Source: Egibacteraceae bacterium (GTDB lineage: Bacteria > Actinomycetota > Nitriliruptoria > Euzebyales > Egibacteraceae). From it: 53,468 nucleotides of DNA. The translations under genes and the position numbers were made by a program. Of this stretch, positions 39,517 to 48,774 are shown one piece after another. The stretch covers positions 1 to 53,468 of the forward strand of contig DATLGH010000059.1 in assembly GCA_035540635.1 (NCBI GenBank), read 5' to 3'. How positions within the stretch are numbered: the stretch's first letter is position 1; every line of letters begins with the position of its first letter. The notes under the pieces are model-generated. The model saw only the letters and a program-made list of their open reading frames with translations. It searched no databases and was not told where the DNA came from.

Positions 39517-40686
39517 CTAGGTCACCACGCTTGGGGCCCCCTTGCCTCGCTCTCGGCGGAGTTCCTCGGCCATCTGCCTTCCCAGGTGGACGACCGCTGG
39601 GACGATGTCTTCCTCGGGGACGGTGGACACGACCTCGCCGCGTTGGAGGATCTGGCCCTTGCCTTTGCCGGCTGCCACCCCGAGGTCGGCCTCGCGCGCC
39701 TCTCCGGGGCCGTTGACCACGCAGCCCATGACCGCAACCCGCAGGGGCACGTCGATGCCCGCGAGGGCGGCCTGCACCGCTTCGGCCAATGCGAACACGT
39801 CGACCTCCGCCCGCCCGCACGAGGGACAGGAGACGAGGTCAAGCCCCCGCCCTCGTAGATGCAGCGCCTCGAGGATGGCGATGCCGGCCTTGACCTCCTC
39901 CACCGGGTCGGTCGACAGGGACACCCGGATCGTGTCACCGATGCCCTCGGCCAGCAGCGTCCCTATGCCCACTGCGGACTTCGGGACGCCGGTGCTGGGC
40001 GGTCCGGCCTCGGTTACACCCAGATGGAGCGGATAGTCCGTGCGCGCCGCCAAGAGGCGGTAGGTCTGAATCATCACCCACGGGTCGGAGTGCTTCACCG
40101 AGATTTTGATGTCGCTGAACCCCACCTGTTCGAGGAGGCCGACCTCGTCAAGGGCGGACTCCACCAGCGCCTCCGGTGTCACCCCGCCGTGCTTTTCCCG
40201 CAGTCGCCGTTCGAGCGATCCCCCGTTGACGCCGACGCGTATGGGGATGCCCCGCTCTCTGGCCGCGTCGGCGATGAGTTGCACCCTTGAGCGGTCCCCT
40301 CCCTTGTGGATGTTGCCCGGGTTGATGCGCACGCCCGCGCAGCCGGCTTCGATCGCCGCCATCGCGTAGCGCCACTGGAAGTGGATGTCGGCGACGACCG
40401 GCAGGGTGGACTTGCGGGCGATCGCGGTCAGGGGCTCGGCATCGTCGCCGCGCGGACAGGCCACCCGGACGATGTCGGCGCCGGCAGCCGCGAGCGCGGC
40501 GATCTGCTGCAGCGTGGCGTCCACATCGCGGGTCGGAGTGGTCGTCATGGATTGGACGCTGACGGGGGCGCCGCCGCCCACGTCGACGGTGGCGAGGCGG
40601 ATACGCCGGGTGGCGCGCCGGCGAGGCGGTTTCAGATGCGTTGGGGGCGACGCGGCGGCGTCGATGACGGGGAGGAAGGAAGTCAA
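39517..40686 (-). CDS. ispG: (E)-4-hydroxy-3-methylbut-2-enyl-diphosphate synthase
   Basis: A 389-residue MEP-pathway enzyme that converts methylerythritol cyclodiphosphate to HMBPP. The TIM-barrel part carries [15 protein letters not shown] and VRINPGNI. The 4Fe-4S domain has SCPSCGR and the [16 protein letters not shown] block. I start at TTG 40686 because GGAGGTG lies eight bases upstream; the longer frame has no ribosome-binding site. It lies at the end of the terpene gene group, separated from it by the plus-strand CYTH gene. A second, housekeeping ispG may exist elsewhere; that cannot be seen here. Confidence 0.9.
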
Positions 40687-40794
40687 CGGCGAAACACCTC
40701 CGGGTGTCGGTCGGGACGGAGGACGTACCCGCGCAGACGGAGCCCTTGCAGGCACCGCCGGCAGACGAAGGGCGCTGGAGGTTTTGGATTCGGG

Positions 40795-40800
40795 TACGGT
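40795..40800 (+). promoter_or_regulatory. Putative leaderless -10 element TACGGT
   Basis: TACGGT is followed by seven bases and then GTG at 40808, with no ribosome-binding site. It lies in the 121-bp gap between the divergent ispG and CYTH genes. Confidence 0.45.
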
Positions 40801-40807
40801 GGCCGCC

Positions 40808-41515
40808 GTGTCGCCTGTTGTCGACCGGGAGATCGAAGCCGCTCTCGTGGTGGTTTCCTCGGATCCTGCGGATGTCCTCGCCCGCCTGCGGGAGCTCCGG
40901 AGGGTCGAACCCTACGGGCTTGAGCCCCGCTCCGAGCAGCGCCTCCTCGACCGCTACCTCGATACGCCTTCCGGCGCCCTGTGGGATCGGCGCCTCGCGC
41001 TGCGCGAGCGTTGGGTGGACGGCGAGTGCGAGCTTGCGCTGAAGGGGCAGCTTGGGCCTCGCGAGCGTTTGGAGATCGCCGGGCCTCAAGGCGGTGCGAC
41101 GTGGCGACGCATCGAGGCTGCGCTGCGTGCGCGGGAGATCCGAGTCCCTTCCAGCGCCTGGCGGGTCATTCAGGAGCGCAGCATGAGGAGAGAGCGGCGG
41201 GCGATGACCTCCGAGGACTGGACGCTGGCCGAGCTTGATCTCGATGACGTGGCCTACCGCTTCGGGACACGGACGGTGCGGTTCTTTGAGGTGGAGATCG
41301 AGCTGGAGGACATCGGGGCCGACCTCGACGCGCTCGTCCGCGCGGTGCAGCGGGCTGTCCCTGAGTTGCGCGAGTGGCCATACGACAAGCTCGTCACCGG
41401 CGCTGCCATGGCGATCGGCCTCGACAAGGACCAGCTGCGCGTCAGCGCCAGGGGCGCGCTGCTGCCCGAATCCCTCGAGCAGCTCGGTTGCCGGCTCGCG
41501 GCCGGACAGACGTGA
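40808..41515 (+). CDS. CYTH-domain protein
   Basis: A 235-residue protein of the CYTH / triphosphate-tunnel fold. Strand motifs are [10 protein letters not shown] near the N-terminus, [28 protein letters not shown] and [11 protein letters not shown]. The defining ExExK motif is degenerate: EIEAA, with Ala replacing Lys. Family members bind triphosphates or long-chain phosphates (thiamine triphosphatase, adenylate cyclase, polyphosphatase). It is the only plus-strand gene within the terpene group and converges on the prenyl synthase gene with an 11-bp gap. Whether it acts in the pathway is unknown. Confidence 0.78.
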
Positions 41516-41526
41516 GCAGCTCGTCG

Positions 41527-42546
41527 TCAGGCTTCCCGCGACACGACGAACCGCGCCAGGTCTTCGAGCTCGGCGCGGACCGCGACGGCGACCGGCTGGG
41601 AGTCCAGCGACCGCAGGGCGAGATGTATCTCGTGCTCGACAAGCTCGGCGGTCCATTGTCTGGCTCCGCTTCGTTCCAGCAGGTCGGTGGCCTTGGCGAC
41701 GTCTCGGTCGCCGAGGCGCTCCTGCGAGAGGATTTGGCGCAGCTGCGCTCGCCACGGGTCGTCACCGCAGAGGGTGAAGACCACGGGCAGGGTCTTCTTG
41801 CGCTGCCGCAGGTCGTTGCCGATGGGCTTGCCCGTCACGGCGGGCTCCCCCCAGGTGCCGAGGAGGTCGTCGACGGCTTGGAAGGCTAGGCCCAGGTGGC
41901 GGCCGTAGGACGCGAGACCTTCGACGAGCCCGGTCGGAGCGCCCGCCAGGTGCGCTCCGATCGCTGAGGAGCAGGACATAAGCGCCGCGGTCTTGGCCGC
42001 GGCCATGTCCATGCACTCGGCGACGGACACGTCAAGCCGGTGCTCGAACGACAGGTCGGCCTGCTGGCCCCGGATGAGATCCCGCACCGCTTGAGTAAGA
42101 CGACTAAGCGCCTCCGTGCGGTGCGGTGAGGGGCACTCGGTGAGCACCTGCCACGCGAGGGTGAGCAGGGCATCGCCCGCAAGGATCGCCGGTCCTTCGC
42201 CGAACACGGTCCAGGCGGTGGGCTGGTGGCGACGCCGCCCGTCACGGTCGATCACGTCGTCGTGGAGGATAGACCAGTTGTGCACGAGCTCGACGGCCAT
42301 GGCGCCGGCGAGGGCGTCTTCGGGACGGGCCCGGGCGGCTCGGGCCGACAGGAACACCAGCGCCGGGCGCAGAGCCTTCCCTGCCCGGGGTGCGCCGGTC
42401 TCGCGTCCCTGGGCGTCGCTCCACCCGAAGTGGTAGCCGCACAGCAGACGGCTCTTCGGGCAGAGTGTGCCGATGGCCGCCAGCAGCGCCGGGTCGACGA
42501 GGCTGCGGGCGTCGGTGAGGGCGGGTGGCGCGGTACGGACGGGCAT
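41527..42546 (-). CDS. Prenyl diphosphate synthase (geranyl diphosphate synthase candidate)
   Basis: A 339-residue all-helical trans-prenyltransferase. The first Asp-rich motif is HDDVIDRD (D96-D100) and the second is QAVDDLLGTWG (about 226). GKALRPALVFL and KTAALM are further family blocks. It condenses IPP with DMAPP. In this operon the expected product is geranyl diphosphate, substrate of the adjacent methyltransferase, though C15/C20 products cannot be excluded. It has no long disordered N-terminus of the sort used as an encapsulin docking tag. It starts 17 bp after the methyltransferase stop. Confidence 0.87.
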   Translation of the reverse strand: MPVRTAPPALTDARSLVDPALLAAIGTLCPKSRLLCGYHFGWSDAQGRETGAPRAGKALRPALVFLSARAARARPEDALAGAMAVELVHNWSILHDDVIDRDGRRRHQPTAWTVFGEGPAILAGDALLTLAWQVLTECPSPHRTEALSRLTQAVRDLIRGQQADLSFEHRLDVSVAECMDMAAAKTAALMSCSSAIGAHLAGAPTGLVEGLASYGRHLGLAFQAVDDLLGTWGEPAVTGKPIGNDLRQRKKTLPVVFTLCGDDPWRAQLRQILSQERLGDRDVAKATDLLERSGARQWTAELVEHEIHLALRSLDSQPVAVAVRAELEDLARFVVSREA

Positions 42547-42563
42547 CGGCTGGAAGGACGCCG

Positions 42564-43472
42564 CTACCCGCGCAGGCTCGACGCCGCAGCGGCCTGTGCG
42601 TCGTCGGGCAGGCGGTCGGCGGCGATGAGAAGGTAGTGAAAGCTTTCTTCCCTGTAGGCGGTGAGGAACGCCTCTTCGATGCCCGTCTTCACGGAGGCTT
42701 GCTGCCGCAGCTCCCAGTACGGGAGGGTCGCCCTGGTGAGGTCAACCACGTTGATGGGCACAAGCCCGTTGGCGGCCATCGCCGTGAAGTACCGGCTTCG
42801 CGGGTGGATGTCGCACACGTAGTGCTCGTTGATCCGACGAACGGCCGCGGAGGGGTCCTTGTCCTGCACGTCGTTGTAGCAGCCGGTGATGCAGACGTAG
42901 CGGCCGCCGTCTTGCAGCAGACGAGCGAACTCGGAGAACAAGTCGAACAGATCGACGTACATCGTCGTCTCGTTCGTCCAGATCCCGCGGTAGGAGCCGG
43001 CCGGCAAGCCGGTGTCGAGCATGTTGCGGAAGTGGAACCGCACACGGTCCGCACAGCCCAGCACCTTCGCCTGCCGGCGGGAGAACTCGACCTGGTACTG
43101 CGAGATCGTGACGCCGTCCACCGCGCAGCCGAGACGTTCGTGGGCCATGATGCTCGTGCCGCCCCGGCCGGAACCCGCGTCGAGCAGGCGGTCGTGCGTG
43201 CCGACAGGGCCGAGGTGGTCGAGCAGCAGGTCGGCCTGGGCGGTCTCCAGGCGGTGGAGTTCCTTGATGATGCGTTCCTCGAGGGTGTCCTCGGACCCCT
43301 GCAGCACGGTCGAGTCGACCTCACCGATCCCGTAGTGGTGGTGGTAGAGCCCGTCGACGTCGCCGAGGCGAAGGTTCACCGGGTCTTGTTGGTTCGTGTC
43401 CCAGTAGGCCGCAACGGCGCGTTGAAACTCGTTGCGTAGGACGCGTTCCGCGGCGGGGGTCGATGTGTCCAT
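42564..43472 (-). CDS. Geranyl diphosphate 2-C-methyltransferase
   Basis: A 302-residue SAM-dependent methyltransferase that adds a methyl group to C2 of geranyl diphosphate, the committed step to 2-methylisoborneol. Hallmarks are DPVNLRLGDVDGLYHHHYGIG (about 30-50), SAM motif I LLDAGSGRGGTS (96-107), and NETTMYVDL. Length matches characterised streptomycete and cyanobacterial GPP methyltransferases (about 290-300 residues). It lies 27 bp after the MIB synthase gene on the same strand, the classic pairing. Confidence 0.94.
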   Translation of the reverse strand: MDTSTPAAERVLRNEFQRAVAAYWDTNQQDPVNLRLGDVDGLYHHHYGIGEVDSTVLQGSEDTLEERIIKELHRLETAQADLLLDHLGPVGTHDRLLDAGSGRGGTSIMAHERLGCAVDGVTISQYQVEFSRRQAKVLGCADRVRFHFRNMLDTGLPAGSYRGIWTNETTMYVDLFDLFSEFARLLQDGGRYVCITGCYNDVQDKDPSAAVRRINEHYVCDIHPRSRYFTAMAANGLVPINVVDLTRATLPYWELRQQASVKTGIEEAFLTAYREESFHYLLIAADRLPDDAQAAAASSLRG

Positions 43473-43499
43473 GTGCTCCTCCTCTTCCTGGGTCAGCGG

Positions 43500-44834
43500 T
43501 CACGCTGGCCGGGTGTTGTAGCGAGGACTGGTGCGGTGCCACTCGCGGTTGCCTCCCAGCCAGGCCCAGATGCCGGTCAGGAAACGTCGGAGCGTCGGGG
43601 AGCCGGCGAGGCTGAGCGCCGCAGCCTCCACCTCCACGGTGCGCACGAACTCGTCGTGGATCTCCACGGTGCGCTGGATGGCCTCCCGCTGGGAACAGCG
43701 CTCCTCGGCGGCGATGAGCTTCGGCAGGTTGAAGTCCTGTCCCGACTGCTCCTTGGCGACCGAGTGCAGGTCGTTGACCAGGACGGTGGCGCTGCCGGCC
43801 ATGGTGAACACCCGGCGAACCCGTTGGTCGGCGAACTCGTCCGGCGGGAGCTCGTAGCCGCCCACCGCGTCGATCAGGACCATGCAGGGCAGGAAGCTGT
43901 TCTCGTGACGGTGGGTGAGGTACTGCCAGACCGGCGGAGTCCGCCCCTGCGCGCGCCACTCCCCCTCCTGGTTGTAGGCGACGAACATGACGGCCAGCTC
44001 GTGGCGCAGCCGGGCCATCTGCGTGGCCGTGGCATACCGGGCGAGGCCCTCCAGGCTCGACCGGTACGCGATCAGCACGGAGTCTTCGTGAACGGCGCTT
44101 TCGAGGGCGGGGGCGTAGGGGGGCGGCAGGTGCGCCGGGTCGACGACCGCGTCGGCCAGCACCAGACGCGTGGCGAGCTGCTTGGGGTCTGCCCCCAGCG
44201 ACGCGTCGTCAACGTAGTGGTCGTCCGTGGCCCACTCCGCCAACGCGCACTTCGCTGCCGCCAGGAGCCGGTCGGGGTCGTCCGAGTCGGGGTGGGCCAG
44301 CATGATGAGCCGTCCCACGTTGGCCGAGCGGACCTCGTCCAGCTTGCCGGGATAGATTCCCACCTCCTCGGCCCACTCGACGAGCCGTTCGTTGACCTCC
44401 TCGCCGAGGGCCACGTCGTCGCGGACCGGCCCCGGGCAGTACAGCTCGGGCACAGCCGTCTCGTCGGAGGGCGAGGCGGGGGTCCGCAAGGATGCGGTGC
44501 CCAGCCCCGTCGGCCCGTCGGGGGCAGGCTTGGGCGCGGCGGTGGGCGCGGTCGCGGGCAGGGCGACCGGGGACCGCGGGGACAGTCGGGCCGCCCCGGT
44601 CCCCAGTCCGACGGGCGCCAGGGGTAGCGCCGGCCTGGCTGCCGCGGCCGGGGCGTCCGCGTGCGGTGCGTCGAGGAGGCCGGGCTCCGTCGCGAACGGA
44701 TCCCCCGGTCCTTCGGGGCTCGGCTCGGGCAGCGTGCTCGGGGCACGGGCGCTCGTGCGGGCGAGCAGGGTGGCGACAAACTCCGCGAGGTCGTCGGTGC
44801 CCGCCGGCGCGGTCAGCCGGGACAACATCGACAT
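43500..44834 (-). CDS. 2-Methylisoborneol synthase with disordered N-terminal tag
   Basis: A 444-residue class I terpene cyclase that converts 2-methyl-GPP to the earthy-smelling 2-methylisoborneol. The Mg-binding motifs are DDHYVDD (204-210) and NDLHSVAKE (354-362); LYCPGPVRDD opens the catalytic domain and an Arg-Tyr pair ends it (TSPRYN). Residues 1-125 are Pro/Ala-rich and disordered and contain two similar motifs, VGLGTGAARL (75-84) and TGLGTASLRT (109-118). Such N-terminal segments direct the enzyme into family 2B encapsulin shells. ATG follows AAGGAGAGG. Confidence 0.94.
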   Translation of the reverse strand: MSMLSRLTAPAGTDDLAEFVATLLARTSARAPSTLPEPSPEGPGDPFATEPGLLDAPHADAPAAAARPALPLAPVGLGTGAARLSPRSPVALPATAPTAAPKPAPDGPTGLGTASLRTPASPSDETAVPELYCPGPVRDDVALGEEVNERLVEWAEEVGIYPGKLDEVRSANVGRLIMLAHPDSDDPDRLLAAAKCALAEWATDDHYVDDASLGADPKQLATRLVLADAVVDPAHLPPPYAPALESAVHEDSVLIAYRSSLEGLARYATATQMARLRHELAVMFVAYNQEGEWRAQGRTPPVWQYLTHRHENSFLPCMVLIDAVGGYELPPDEFADQRVRRVFTMAGSATVLVNDLHSVAKEQSGQDFNLPKLIAAEERCSQREAIQRTVEIHDEFVRTVEVEAAALSLAGSPTLRRFLTGIWAWLGGNREWHRTSPRYNTRPA

Positions 44835-44844
44835 CGCCTCTCCT

Positions 44845-44898
44845 TCATCCGTTGCGGAACCGGGCGCGGGCCGGTCTGCGGGCGGGCGGGCTCGTCAT
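44845..44898 (-). CDS. Possible 17-codon coupling ORF between ispH and MIB synthase
   Basis: A 17-residue frame ([17 protein letters not shown]) begins at an ATG overlapping the ispH stop (ATGA). It ends at a TGA whose last bases lead into the AAGGAGAGG ribosome-binding site of the cyclase gene. It could keep ribosomes moving from ispH to the cyclase start. Its composition is basic and it may not make a stable peptide. Confidence 0.3.
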
Positions 44899-45869
44899 CG
44901 GCGCCTCACCACCGAGGGCAGCGTGAAGTGCGCGGTCTCGCGGGTGATCGCGCGTTCCTCGACGGTGATCGGCCCGAGCGTGGACAGGTGGGCGAGGACG
45001 TCGCCGACCAGCCGCTCGGGCGCGGACGCGCCGGCCGACAGCCCGACCACCCGAGCGCCCGCCAGCCATTGGGCACGGATGTCCGTGGCGTCGTCGACGA
45101 GGTGGGCGGGTGTGCCCTGGCGGCGGGCGACCTCTGCCAGGCGCTGGGAGTTGGACGAGTTGTCCGAGCCGACGACAAGGACGAGGTCGGCCTCGCGGGC
45201 CACCGCGGCCAGCGCTTCCTGGCGGTTGGTCGTGGCGTAGCAGATGTCCTCGGAGGCGGGTCCCCGCAGGGCCGGGAAGCGGGCCCGGAGGGCGTCGATC
45301 GTCTCCGCGGTCTCGTCCACCGCCAGGGTTGTCTGGGTCACATACGACACACGGGCCGGGTTGTCGACCGCCAGCTGTTCGACGTCGGCGGGGCTTTCGA
45401 CCACGACGATGTCCTGCGGGGCCTCCCCGAGGGTCCCCTCGACTTCCTCGTGGCCGGCGTGACCGATGAGGACGACGGTGTCGCCCCGGGTGGCGAACCG
45501 CTGGACCTCCGCGTGGACTTTGCTCACCAGGGGACAGGTGGCATCGACGACGTCCAGCTGCCGGCGCGCAGCCTCGGCCCGGACGGCGGGGGACACGCCG
45601 TGAGCTGATAACACCACCGTGGCCCTCTGGGGCACGGCGTCCAGCTCCTCGACGAAGACCGCGCCGCGGTCGCTCAGGTCTGCCACCACGTGACGGTTGT
45701 GGACGATCTGCCTGCGCACGTAGATGGGTGGCCTGCGCGTGTCCAGCAGGCGCTCGACGATTTCGATGGCCCGTTCGACGCCGGCGCAGCTCGCTCGGGG
45801 CGAGGCGAGCAGGACGGTGCGGGGCTCGCCGGACGTCCACGTTCGGGCAGCGCCGCCCGTGTCGGTCAT
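44895..45869 (-). CDS. ispH: 4-Hydroxy-3-methylbut-2-enyl diphosphate reductase
   Basis: A 324-residue 4Fe-4S enzyme that makes IPP and DMAPP from HMBPP. Cluster cysteines lie in [24 protein letters not shown] and [10 protein letters not shown]. Substrate-binding residues are in [25 protein letters not shown] and LSAGASAPE. The first block normally reads PRGFCAGV or PRGYCAGV, so Ala-Ser before the Cys is unusual. The ATG overlaps the encapsulin A stop (ATGA), tying ispH firmly to the shell genes. It supplies both C5 precursors for the operon's terpene. Confidence 0.92.
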
Positions 45870-47329
45870 GGGGTCCACCGCCCGCTGGCACCCGCCCCGC
45901 CGGCACCCGCCGCCGCTTCCCGACGCCCGGTCTCGACGTCTTCGAGGACCCCGAGGGCGTCGGGGATGAGGATGGCCGCTGAGAAGTACGCGCTGACGAG
46001 GTAGGAGATGATGCCCTTCTCGTCGATGCCCATGAACCGGGCGGACAGGCTGGGTTGGACTTCGTCGGGGATGCCGGTTTGGTGCAGGCCGACGACGCCC
46101 TGGTCGTCCTGCCCGACGCGCATGGCCATGATCGAGGTGGTGCCGGACTCGGTGAGGGGGATCTTGTTGCATGGCAGCAGCGGCACATCCCGCCAGGCGT
46201 GCACCGTCCGCCCGTGCAGTCGGACGGGTTGGGGGTAGATGCCGCGACGGTTGCACTCCTGCCCGAAGGCGGCGATGGCGCGTGGGTGGGCCAGGAAGTA
46301 GCGCGTCTTGCGGCGTCGGGACAGCAGCTCGTCGAGGTCGTCGGGGGTGGGCGGACCTGTCCGCGTGTGCAGCCGCTGGGAGAAGGCCACGTTGGGCAGC
46401 AGCCCGAAGTCGGCGTTGTTGACGATCTCATGCTCTTGGCGTTCCCGCAGGGCCTCGATGGTCAGGCGCAGCTGCTGCCCCGTCTGGTTCATCGGGTCGT
46501 TGAACAGGTCCGCCACCCGGGTGTGGATGCGCAGCACGGTCTGGGCGACCGACAGCTCGTACTCCCGTGGGTCGCGGTCGTAGTCCACGTAGGTCCCCGG
46601 CACCTGGTCCTCTTGGCGGTGGCCGGCGGCGAGTTCCACGTCGGCCTGGCCGTGCCGGTCGTGCGGGCGTCCTGGCCCGGCCCGGAACCGTTCGAGGTGC
46701 GCTTGCAGGGCCGGGGAGCCGGCGGCCACCTCGTCGAAGCGCTCCCGTGTCAGGACCAGTACCGTGGACCGGCTGGCTGCCCGGACGGTAAACGGCCAGC
46801 GCTGCGCGCCCAGGGTGTGGTAGCTGAAGTGGTCGCCGTCTCCCAGCACCGCGAGCACGAGGGCTTCGCCGTAGTGACCGGTGCCCAGCTTCTCGACCTT
46901 GCCGTGGGCGATGAGGCAGATCTCGTCGGCGGTCTGGCCGGCTTCCACGATGGTCTGTCCTGGTGCGAGGTCGCGCTGGACGAACCGCCCGGCGAGGGTG
47001 TCGAGCACCTCCTCGTCGGCGAAGTCCCGCAGCACGGCCAGTTCCCGCAGCTCCTGGGGAATGACCCGCGCATGCGCGCCCTCCTGCAGGAAGGTGATCC
47101 GCCCGTCGCCGACGGTGAGCACGAGCCGGCGGTTGACCCGGTAGGTGCCACCCGCGACCTGCACCCAGGGCAGGATGCGCAGCAGCCATCGCGGGGTGAT
47201 CCCGCGCATCTGGGGCACTGTTTTGGTGGTGGTGGCCAGTTGCCGTGCCGCAGCGGTGCTGAGACTGCGCCGCGGCCGCCCGTCGTCGGTCGCCGCGCTG
47301 GCCCCTGTCGGGGTGACGTTTGCTGCCAT
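45866..47329 (-). CDS. Family 2B encapsulin shell protein A
   Basis: A 487-residue HK97-fold shell protein with an inserted cyclic-nucleotide-binding-like domain. The N-terminal arm ([34 protein letters not shown]) is followed by the insert (about 98-215) and the shell core ([70 protein letters not shown]). There is no helix-turn-helix, so it is not a Crp/Fnr regulator. The phosphate-binding cassette is poor ([12 protein letters not shown]), so nucleotide binding is uncertain. An Ala/Gly-rich tail of about 17 residues is absent from copy B. The stop overlaps ispH. Confidence 0.88.
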
Positions 47330-47361
47330 CGCTCAGCGTTCGCCGGATGCGGGGTGGCCGG

Positions 47362-48774
47362 TCAGTCGTGCAGGCCGATCTGCACGTCCTCGAGGACCCC
47401 GAGGGCGTCGGGCACCAGGACCGCCGCGCTGTAGTAGATGGTGACGAGGTAGGAGATGATGCCCTTCTCGTCCATGCGCATGAAGCGCACGGACAGGCTC
47501 GGCTCGTACTCGTCGGGGATGCCGGCCTGGTGCAGGCCGACGACCCCTCGGTCGTCCTCGCCGACGCGCATGAGCATGACCGAGCTCGTTGCCCGGTCGG
47601 TGATCGGGATCTTGTTGCACGGCAGGAGAGGAATCCCCCGCCAGGCGGGCACCGTGTGGCCGTCCACCTCGACCGGGGTGGGATACAGCCCCCGCCGGTT
47701 GCACTCGCGGGCGAAGGCGGCGATGGTCCGGGGGTGGGCGAAGAAGAAGCCGGGGTTCTTCCACACCACTGACAGCAGCTCGTCGAAGTCGTCGGGGGTC
47801 GGCGGACCGGTGCGGCTGTGGACCCGCTGCGGGAAGGCGGCGTTGTGGAGAAGCCCGATCTCAGGGTTGTTGACCATCTCGTGCTCCTGGCGCTCCCGCA
47901 GCGCCTGTATGGTCAACCGCAGCTGCTGTTCGGTCTGGTTCATGGGGTCGTTGAACAGGTCAGCGACCCGGGTGTGGACCCGCAGCACGGTCTGGGCGAC
48001 GGTGAGCTCGTACTCGCGCGGGGCCCGGTCGTAGTCGACGTAGGTACCGGGGACCTCGTCCTCCTGCCGGTGCGCGGAGGCCACCTCGACGCCGGCCTCG
48101 CCGAACTGGTTCTGGGGACGGTCCGGCCCTGACACGAACCGCTCGATCTGCGCTCGGAGGGTTGGCGCCTGGTCGGCCACCTCCTCGAAGGCCTGCTCGG
48201 AGAGCATCAGCACGATGCAGCGCGTCGCCGCCCGCGCCGTGAACGGCCAGGTGTCCTGCGTCCGGCGAACCCCGGGGTAGCTGATGTGGTCGCCGTCGGC
48301 GAGGACCTCCTGCACCGTGGGCTCGTCGTACTTGCCCGGTACCACCTTGTTGACCTTGCCGTGGACGATGAGGCAGATCTGGTCGGCCGATTGACCGGCC
48401 TCTAGGATCGCCTCGCCCGGTTCGAATTCCTGTTGGACGAAGCGCTCCGCCAGCGCAGCCAGAACCTCCTCGTCCTCGAAGTCCCTCAGCAGGGCCAGCT
48501 CACGAAGCTCGTGGGGAACGACCTGCGCCTGGCCGCCGTTCTGCAGGAAGGTGATCTGACCATCACCGACGGTGAAGACCAGCCGGCGGTTCACGCGGTA
48601 GATGCCGCCCGAGACCTGCACCCAGGGCAGAACCCGCAGGAGCCATCGCGACGTGATCCCCTGCATCTGGGGGACCGTCTTGGTCGTCGTTGTGAGCCTG
48701 CGGGCCGCCGTGGTGGCCAGGCTCATCTTCGGCTGGCCGTTCTGGGCGGCAAGGTCTTCCGCTGTCTGCGTCAT
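47362..48774 (-). CDS. Family 2B encapsulin shell protein B
   Basis: A 470-residue paralogue of shell protein A, similar along the whole length: [34 protein letters not shown], a CNB-like insert, [29 protein letters not shown] and [13 protein letters not shown]. They differ most in the insert ([12 protein letters not shown]-like region) and in the segment before AHPR ([11 protein letters not shown] against [10 protein letters not shown]). It lies 32 bp upstream of A. Two shell genes next to a MIB synthase suggest a mixed two-component capsid, as inferred for some streptomycete 2B systems. ATG overlaps the 41-residue frame. Confidence 0.88.

Follow-up and report, generated by a model that had tools for sequence, protein, structure and literature searches.

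The 2-methylisoborneol (2-MIB) synthase encoded in the window (the whole stretch of 53,468 nucleotides analysed here) carries two copies of a GLGT motif in its N-terminal tail, and each copy is probably a short linear docking motif that loads the enzyme as cargo into an encapsulin shell. The docking motif would have roughly the form [G/A]P[T/S/V]GLGT[S/A]xx[R/L]. The disordered tail is proposed to attach to the luminal surface of the Family 2B shell while the shell assembles, and this binding would retain the MIB synthase in the shell lumen. The motif copies, zero to three per protein, may be interchangeable and would not pair with particular shell paralogues; extra copies would most likely provide redundancy, more avidity or a higher chance of capture. 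The motif is further expected to act together with a conserved segment at the N terminus (residues 1-28). The GPTGLGT consensus of 2-MIB synthase (2-MIBS)-like cyclases, its repetition in geosmin synthase-like cyclases and a proposed role in targeting were already published in 2021 (Andreas & Giessen 2021, PMC8346489). As far as the literature found shows, the copy-number survey, the independence of copy number from shell number, the element at residues 1-28 and the motif-free clades are new.

The product of MIB synthase is 2-methylisoborneol, a musty odorant. The window enzyme scored 536.9 bits (cut-off 400) against NF041167 ('family 2 encapsulin nanocompartment cargo protein terpene cyclase'), and among solved structures it is closest to the 2-MIB synthases 3v1v and 3v1x. 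Residues D204, D205, N354, D355, S358 and E362 of the cyclase are invariant in alignment A1. The methyltransferase and polyprenyl synthetase genes lie downstream of the MIB synthase gene, and an IspH/LytB gene and two shell genes lie upstream (Table 1). Encapsulated polyprenyl synthetases are reported to have a disordered N-terminal extension, which the window polyprenyl synthetase lacks. The NF041167 match, the disordered extension, the GPTGLGT sequence and the adjoining shell genes place the MIB synthase among the putative 2-MIBS-like Family 2B cargos. Among 66 genomes of the window's class, a MIB synthase was found in only one, the window's own genome, in which no match to a geosmin synthase was found. 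These two observations fit a horizontal acquisition of the cluster at 39517-48774. A CYTH-domain reading frame (40385-41515, plus strand) overlaps an antisense ispG (GcpE) reading frame (39517-40755).

Table 1. Features of the MIB synthase cluster in the window, with positions, strand and supporting data
Feature	Positions	Strand	Size or residues	Basis
Polyprenyl synthetase	41527..42546	(-)		PF00348; NF041169 390.3 bits, below cut-off 450
Geranyl diphosphate 2-C-methyltransferase	42564..43472	(-)		NF041943 482.2 bits, cut-off 400
2-Methylisoborneol synthase, putative Family 2B encapsulin cargo	43500..44834	(-)	444 aa	NF041167 f2_encap_cargo2 and PF19086
Cyclase domain	43515..44447	(-)	about residues 130-440	pLDDT mostly >90 from residue 131 (AlphaFold2)
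Motif copy 2, DGPTGLGTASLRTP	44478..44519	(-)	residues 106-119	GLGT = residues 110-113, 44496-44507; exact GPTGLGT
Motif copy 1, LAPVGLGTGAARLS	44580..44621	(-)	residues 72-85	GLGT = residues 76-79, 44598-44609; variant APVGLGT
Conserved N-terminal element [V/M]SxLSRxxAPxAxHDxAxLVxALL	44751..44834	(-)	residues 1-28	Position counts, 37 dereplicated sequences
Family 2B encapsulin shell protein, Enc2 type	45866..47329	(-)		Diagnostic SRRRK; NF041163 744.2 bits, PF19307 and PF00027
Family 2B encapsulin shell protein, Enc1 type	47362..48774	(-)		Diagnostic VVWK; NF041163 739.5 bits

The genes alone indicate a two-component Family 2B system, in which two 2B shell genes lie less than 10 kb apart and encode the diagnostic VVWK and RRRK sequences. 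The best structure match is 9bix for Enc2 and 9bje for Enc1. Diagnostic motif 1 has been described as TVWK in Enc1 and RRRK in Enc2 (Dutcher et al. 2025, PMC12407261). The two-component Family 2B encapsulin of Streptomyces lydicus likewise combines Enc1 (xVWK) with Enc2 (RRRK); however, xylulose kinase is the enzyme associated with that system, which was described without an assigned cargo, whereas the window system has the MIB synthase as its putative cargo (PMC12407261). The cargo-site residues of the SrpI system are F262 and Y273 (PMC8049743), and their equivalents are F431 and Y442 in the window Enc1, with identical residues in the window Enc2. These presumed cargo-site residues are nearly invariant across 165 aligned shell sequences, and the shell positions that separate the partners of GLGT-type enzymes from those of clade C, a sister clade of MIBS-like cyclases, follow phylogeny. 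In the HK97-domain tree, Enc1 and Enc2 of one lineage cluster (99 for the window pair, 95 for the Pseudonocardiales set) with the diagnostic motifs retained; the loci concerned are those of the window (45866-47329 and 47362-48774), L001-L005, L028 and L284-L298. Since the same-lineage Enc1 and Enc2 group in the tree despite their distinct motifs, the result suggests gene conversion or repeated Enc1/Enc2 duplication with retention of the diagnostic motif.

Translation of 43500-44834 confirmed the duplicated GLGT reported by the initial annotation, with VGLGTGAARL at residues 75-84 and TGLGTASLRT at residues 109-118, and the coordinates given there proved accurate. The two copies are 34 residues apart in a tail rich in alanine and proline (22 of each among the 97 residues from 29 to 125). 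The AlphaFold2 model has a pLDDT of about 33-50 over residues 1-120 and mostly below 50 over residues 1-123, and no structure is predicted at either GLGT motif, which is neutral with respect to docking. Shuffling of the N-terminus produced at least one GLGT in 0.9% of cases and two in 0 of 20,000 shuffles. Against a motif profile built from other species with the window sequence left out, copy 2 scored 24.0 bits and copy 1 scored 11.5 bits, with the 99.9% limit of the shuffles at 10.9. The window 10-mers are identical at 5/10 positions; the best internal 10-mer match reaches 6/10, as it does in most shuffles. Because such overall 10-mer resemblance is ordinary in a Pro/Ala-rich tail, the evidence lies in the exact GLGT core and its conservation elsewhere. 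A chance origin of the copies is ruled out by the shuffles together with the conservation across phyla. At the DNA level the two copies agree at only 18 of 36 positions, which excludes a recent tandem duplication. A DNA-level reading of the window's genome gave three other GPxGLGT places, which lie in short or odd reading frames and are not gene-like by inspection. A query of the motif peptide against solved structures returned no chain containing it.

Comparison with known cargos places the window enzyme close to published systems. The 2-MIBS-like cargo of PMC8346489 resembles it in enzyme family, disordered N-terminal location of the motif, neighbouring genes and consensus, which copy 2 matches exactly. 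However, in the available text a single GPTGLGT region is given for these cyclases and a repeat only for the geosmin synthase-like ones, whereas the window enzyme and many Streptomyces MIB synthases have two (copy 1 of the window being the variant APVGLGT). In geosmin synthase-like cargo of Family 2B, where GPTGLGTSAAR is repeated, one polypeptide likewise bears the motif twice, but there it lies between the two cyclase domains and at the C terminus rather than 34 residues apart in one N-terminal tail. In the Family 2A cysteine desulfurase of the SrpI/CyD system, as in the window enzyme, a long N-terminal domain is disordered and contains two short conserved motifs; in SrpI/CyD this domain has been proven necessary and sufficient for loading (PMC8049743). 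Its motifs (LARLANEFFS and AASPYYFLDG), its cargo and its shell subfamily differ from those of the window (PMC8049743).

The conservation of the motif was analysed in 152 MIBS-like genes with their surroundings (53 genome-contig loci and 100 fetched stretches), 86 of which remained after dereplication at 90%. The GLGT motif is present in most of the 86 dereplicated MIB synthases, those of Bacteroidota included. Where a shell gene adjoins, it was found in 35/41 dereplicated enzymes of group A, 20/21 of group B and 2/2 of Bacteroidota. In alignments of close homologues, the motif reached an identity of 0.67-0.74, compared with 0.28-0.33 in the remaining tail and 80-85% in the cyclase. The Bacteroidota enzymes, which are 38-39% identical to that of the window, retain GPRGLGT or GPKGLGT. 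An adjoining shell gene does not always come with the motif. Nocardiopsis relatives (L036, L038, L044 and L045) have an adjoining shell gene and no good motif copy, and clade C (L164, L167, L169-L173, L175, L212 and L215) lacks GLGT despite adjoining shell and methyltransferase genes. The very short tail of clade C bears LPGPPxxAR, possibly a variant tag. No MIBS relatives were found in viral contigs, and plasmid records gave only five matches. Loading of the Streptomyces griseus 2-MIBS is reportedly mediated by its disordered N-terminus, according to a preprint on its encapsulation.

The strongest comparative support for docking is that geosmin synthase and MIB synthase have the motif in common in four Pseudonocardiales clusters (L001, L002, L003 and L005). 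The gene order in these clusters is Enc1, geosmin synthase, MIB synthase, methyltransferase, Enc2. The geosmin synthase bears the motif in its interdomain region as well as C-terminally, and one or two copies are present in the MIB synthase. More widely, the C-terminal motif occurs in 7/7 geosmin synthases that adjoin a shell gene compared with 13/25 others (Fisher p 0.029, relatedness uncorrected). The motif as such was absent from 16/16 non-geosmin terpene synthases. The arrangement suggests a joint geosmin/2-MIB compartment in these four loci and in G150. A polyprenyl transferase gene joins the geosmin synthase, MIB synthase and shell genes in L002, L003, L005 and G150 (L207), and the contig of L001 stops short of it.

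The dereplicated MIB synthases without an adjoining shell gene retain the motif in 9/9 cases. A 2B shell is encoded elsewhere in 15/15 examined genomes whose MIB synthase has no adjacent shell, but also in 19/20 Streptomyces without MIB synthase, 2B shells being near-universal in that genus. A comparison of motif retention with the presence of a shell in the genome therefore carries little power. In three Streptomyces genomes (G468, G597 and G521), a motif-bearing MIB synthase lies 140-190 kb from the sole 2B shell gene. Thus, shell adjacency fails to predict the motif, and these three are candidates for loading in trans. The MIB synthase of Streptomyces L042 has lost its entire N-terminal tail and has no adjoining shell gene.

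The linker around the motifs had been described as otherwise featureless, a description that must be revised, since residues 1-28 are also conserved and are predicted to be partly helical. Their pairwise identity is 0.52 versus 0.28 for the remaining tail (37 dereplicated group A sequences), with R6 present in 37/37, L23 in 33/37 and L24 in 32/37, and AlphaFold2 predicts a helix at residues 16-26 with low confidence. Outside the conserved islands, disorder is predicted to residue 123. Residues 1-28 are probably a second contact with the shell. The same conservation and predicted helix would suit an arrangement in which docking depends chiefly on residues 1-28, with the GLGT motifs in a supporting role; the Family 2A cargo tail likewise has a hydrophobic motif (LARLANEFFS, PMC8049743), and in the Nocardiopsis loci L044 and L045 the GLGT has decayed while the N-terminal segment and an adjoining shell gene are retained. 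However, the MIB synthases of group B and Bacteroidota keep GLGT without this exact segment, and it is GLGT, not the segment, that is common to geosmin synthases. A leading role for residues 1-28 is thus unlikely. Retention of the motif in MIB and geosmin synthases without an adjoining shell gene could also mean that it serves the cyclase itself, as a dimer contact, a lid or an aid to solubility, or serves another partner, and has only been inherited alongside encapsulins. MIB synthase and the methyltransferase yield 2-MIB in E. coli without shell genes (PMC10580876), so that the shell is dispensable for catalysis. However, a fixed structural role fits poorly with a motif that moves from the N-terminus in MIB synthase to the linker and C-terminus in geosmin synthase, that varies from zero to three copies and that lies in predicted disorder in the window protein. 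Moreover, nearly all these genomes carry a 2B shell. A function confined to the cyclase or to another partner is accordingly quite improbable.

The number of copies had been proposed to match the two shells, one motif copy for each paralogue. The window, L001 and L002 do combine two shells with two copies, but L001, L003 and L005, which have near-identical cyclases in the same two-shell cluster, carry 2, 1 and 1 copies. Among all group A two-shell loci, the good copies number 2, 2, 2, 1, 1, 1, 1 and 0. The 35 single-shell loci of group A have 0, 1, 2 and 3 copies in 5, 18, 11 and 1 cases, so that two or three copies occur in 12/35. Many Streptomyces MIB synthases have two copies with one shell gene, in most cases spaced by 34-65 residues and usually with the last copy 26-30 residues ahead of the cyclase. 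The group A tree requires at least nine copy-number changes, which have no evident connection with the number of shells, with independent comparisons too few for a test. Both paralogues have the same cargo-site residues, and the published two-component shells are irregular in tiling and variable in composition (PMC12407261). Given the copy counts, the changes on the tree and the shared cargo-site residues, a pairing of one copy with one paralogue is unsupported and very improbable. The broader proposal of the initial annotation, that the conserved islands are shell-docking peptides, stands as the probable reading, with a conserved motif in a disordered tail, a cargo match, two adjoining shell genes and the sharing with geosmin synthase in its favour; its assignment of the two copies to two shell paralogues does not stand.

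Copy number should therefore not be read as matching shell paralogues. If the GLGT motif is the docking signal, it would provide a compact and testable cargo tag for Family 2B shells. The difference in copy number between L001 and L003/L005 is a natural experiment on the effect of the repeats on loading. A docking role for the motif would also predict that geosmin and 2-MIB synthases are able to share a compartment. It is possible, though doubtful, that GLGT is a common tag by which one shell admits both geosmin synthase and MIB synthase, together in clusters such as L001-L005 and G150, and in trans in those Streptomyces whose synthase gene is remote from any shell gene. If so, the copy number would set the share of the lumen that each enzyme occupies.
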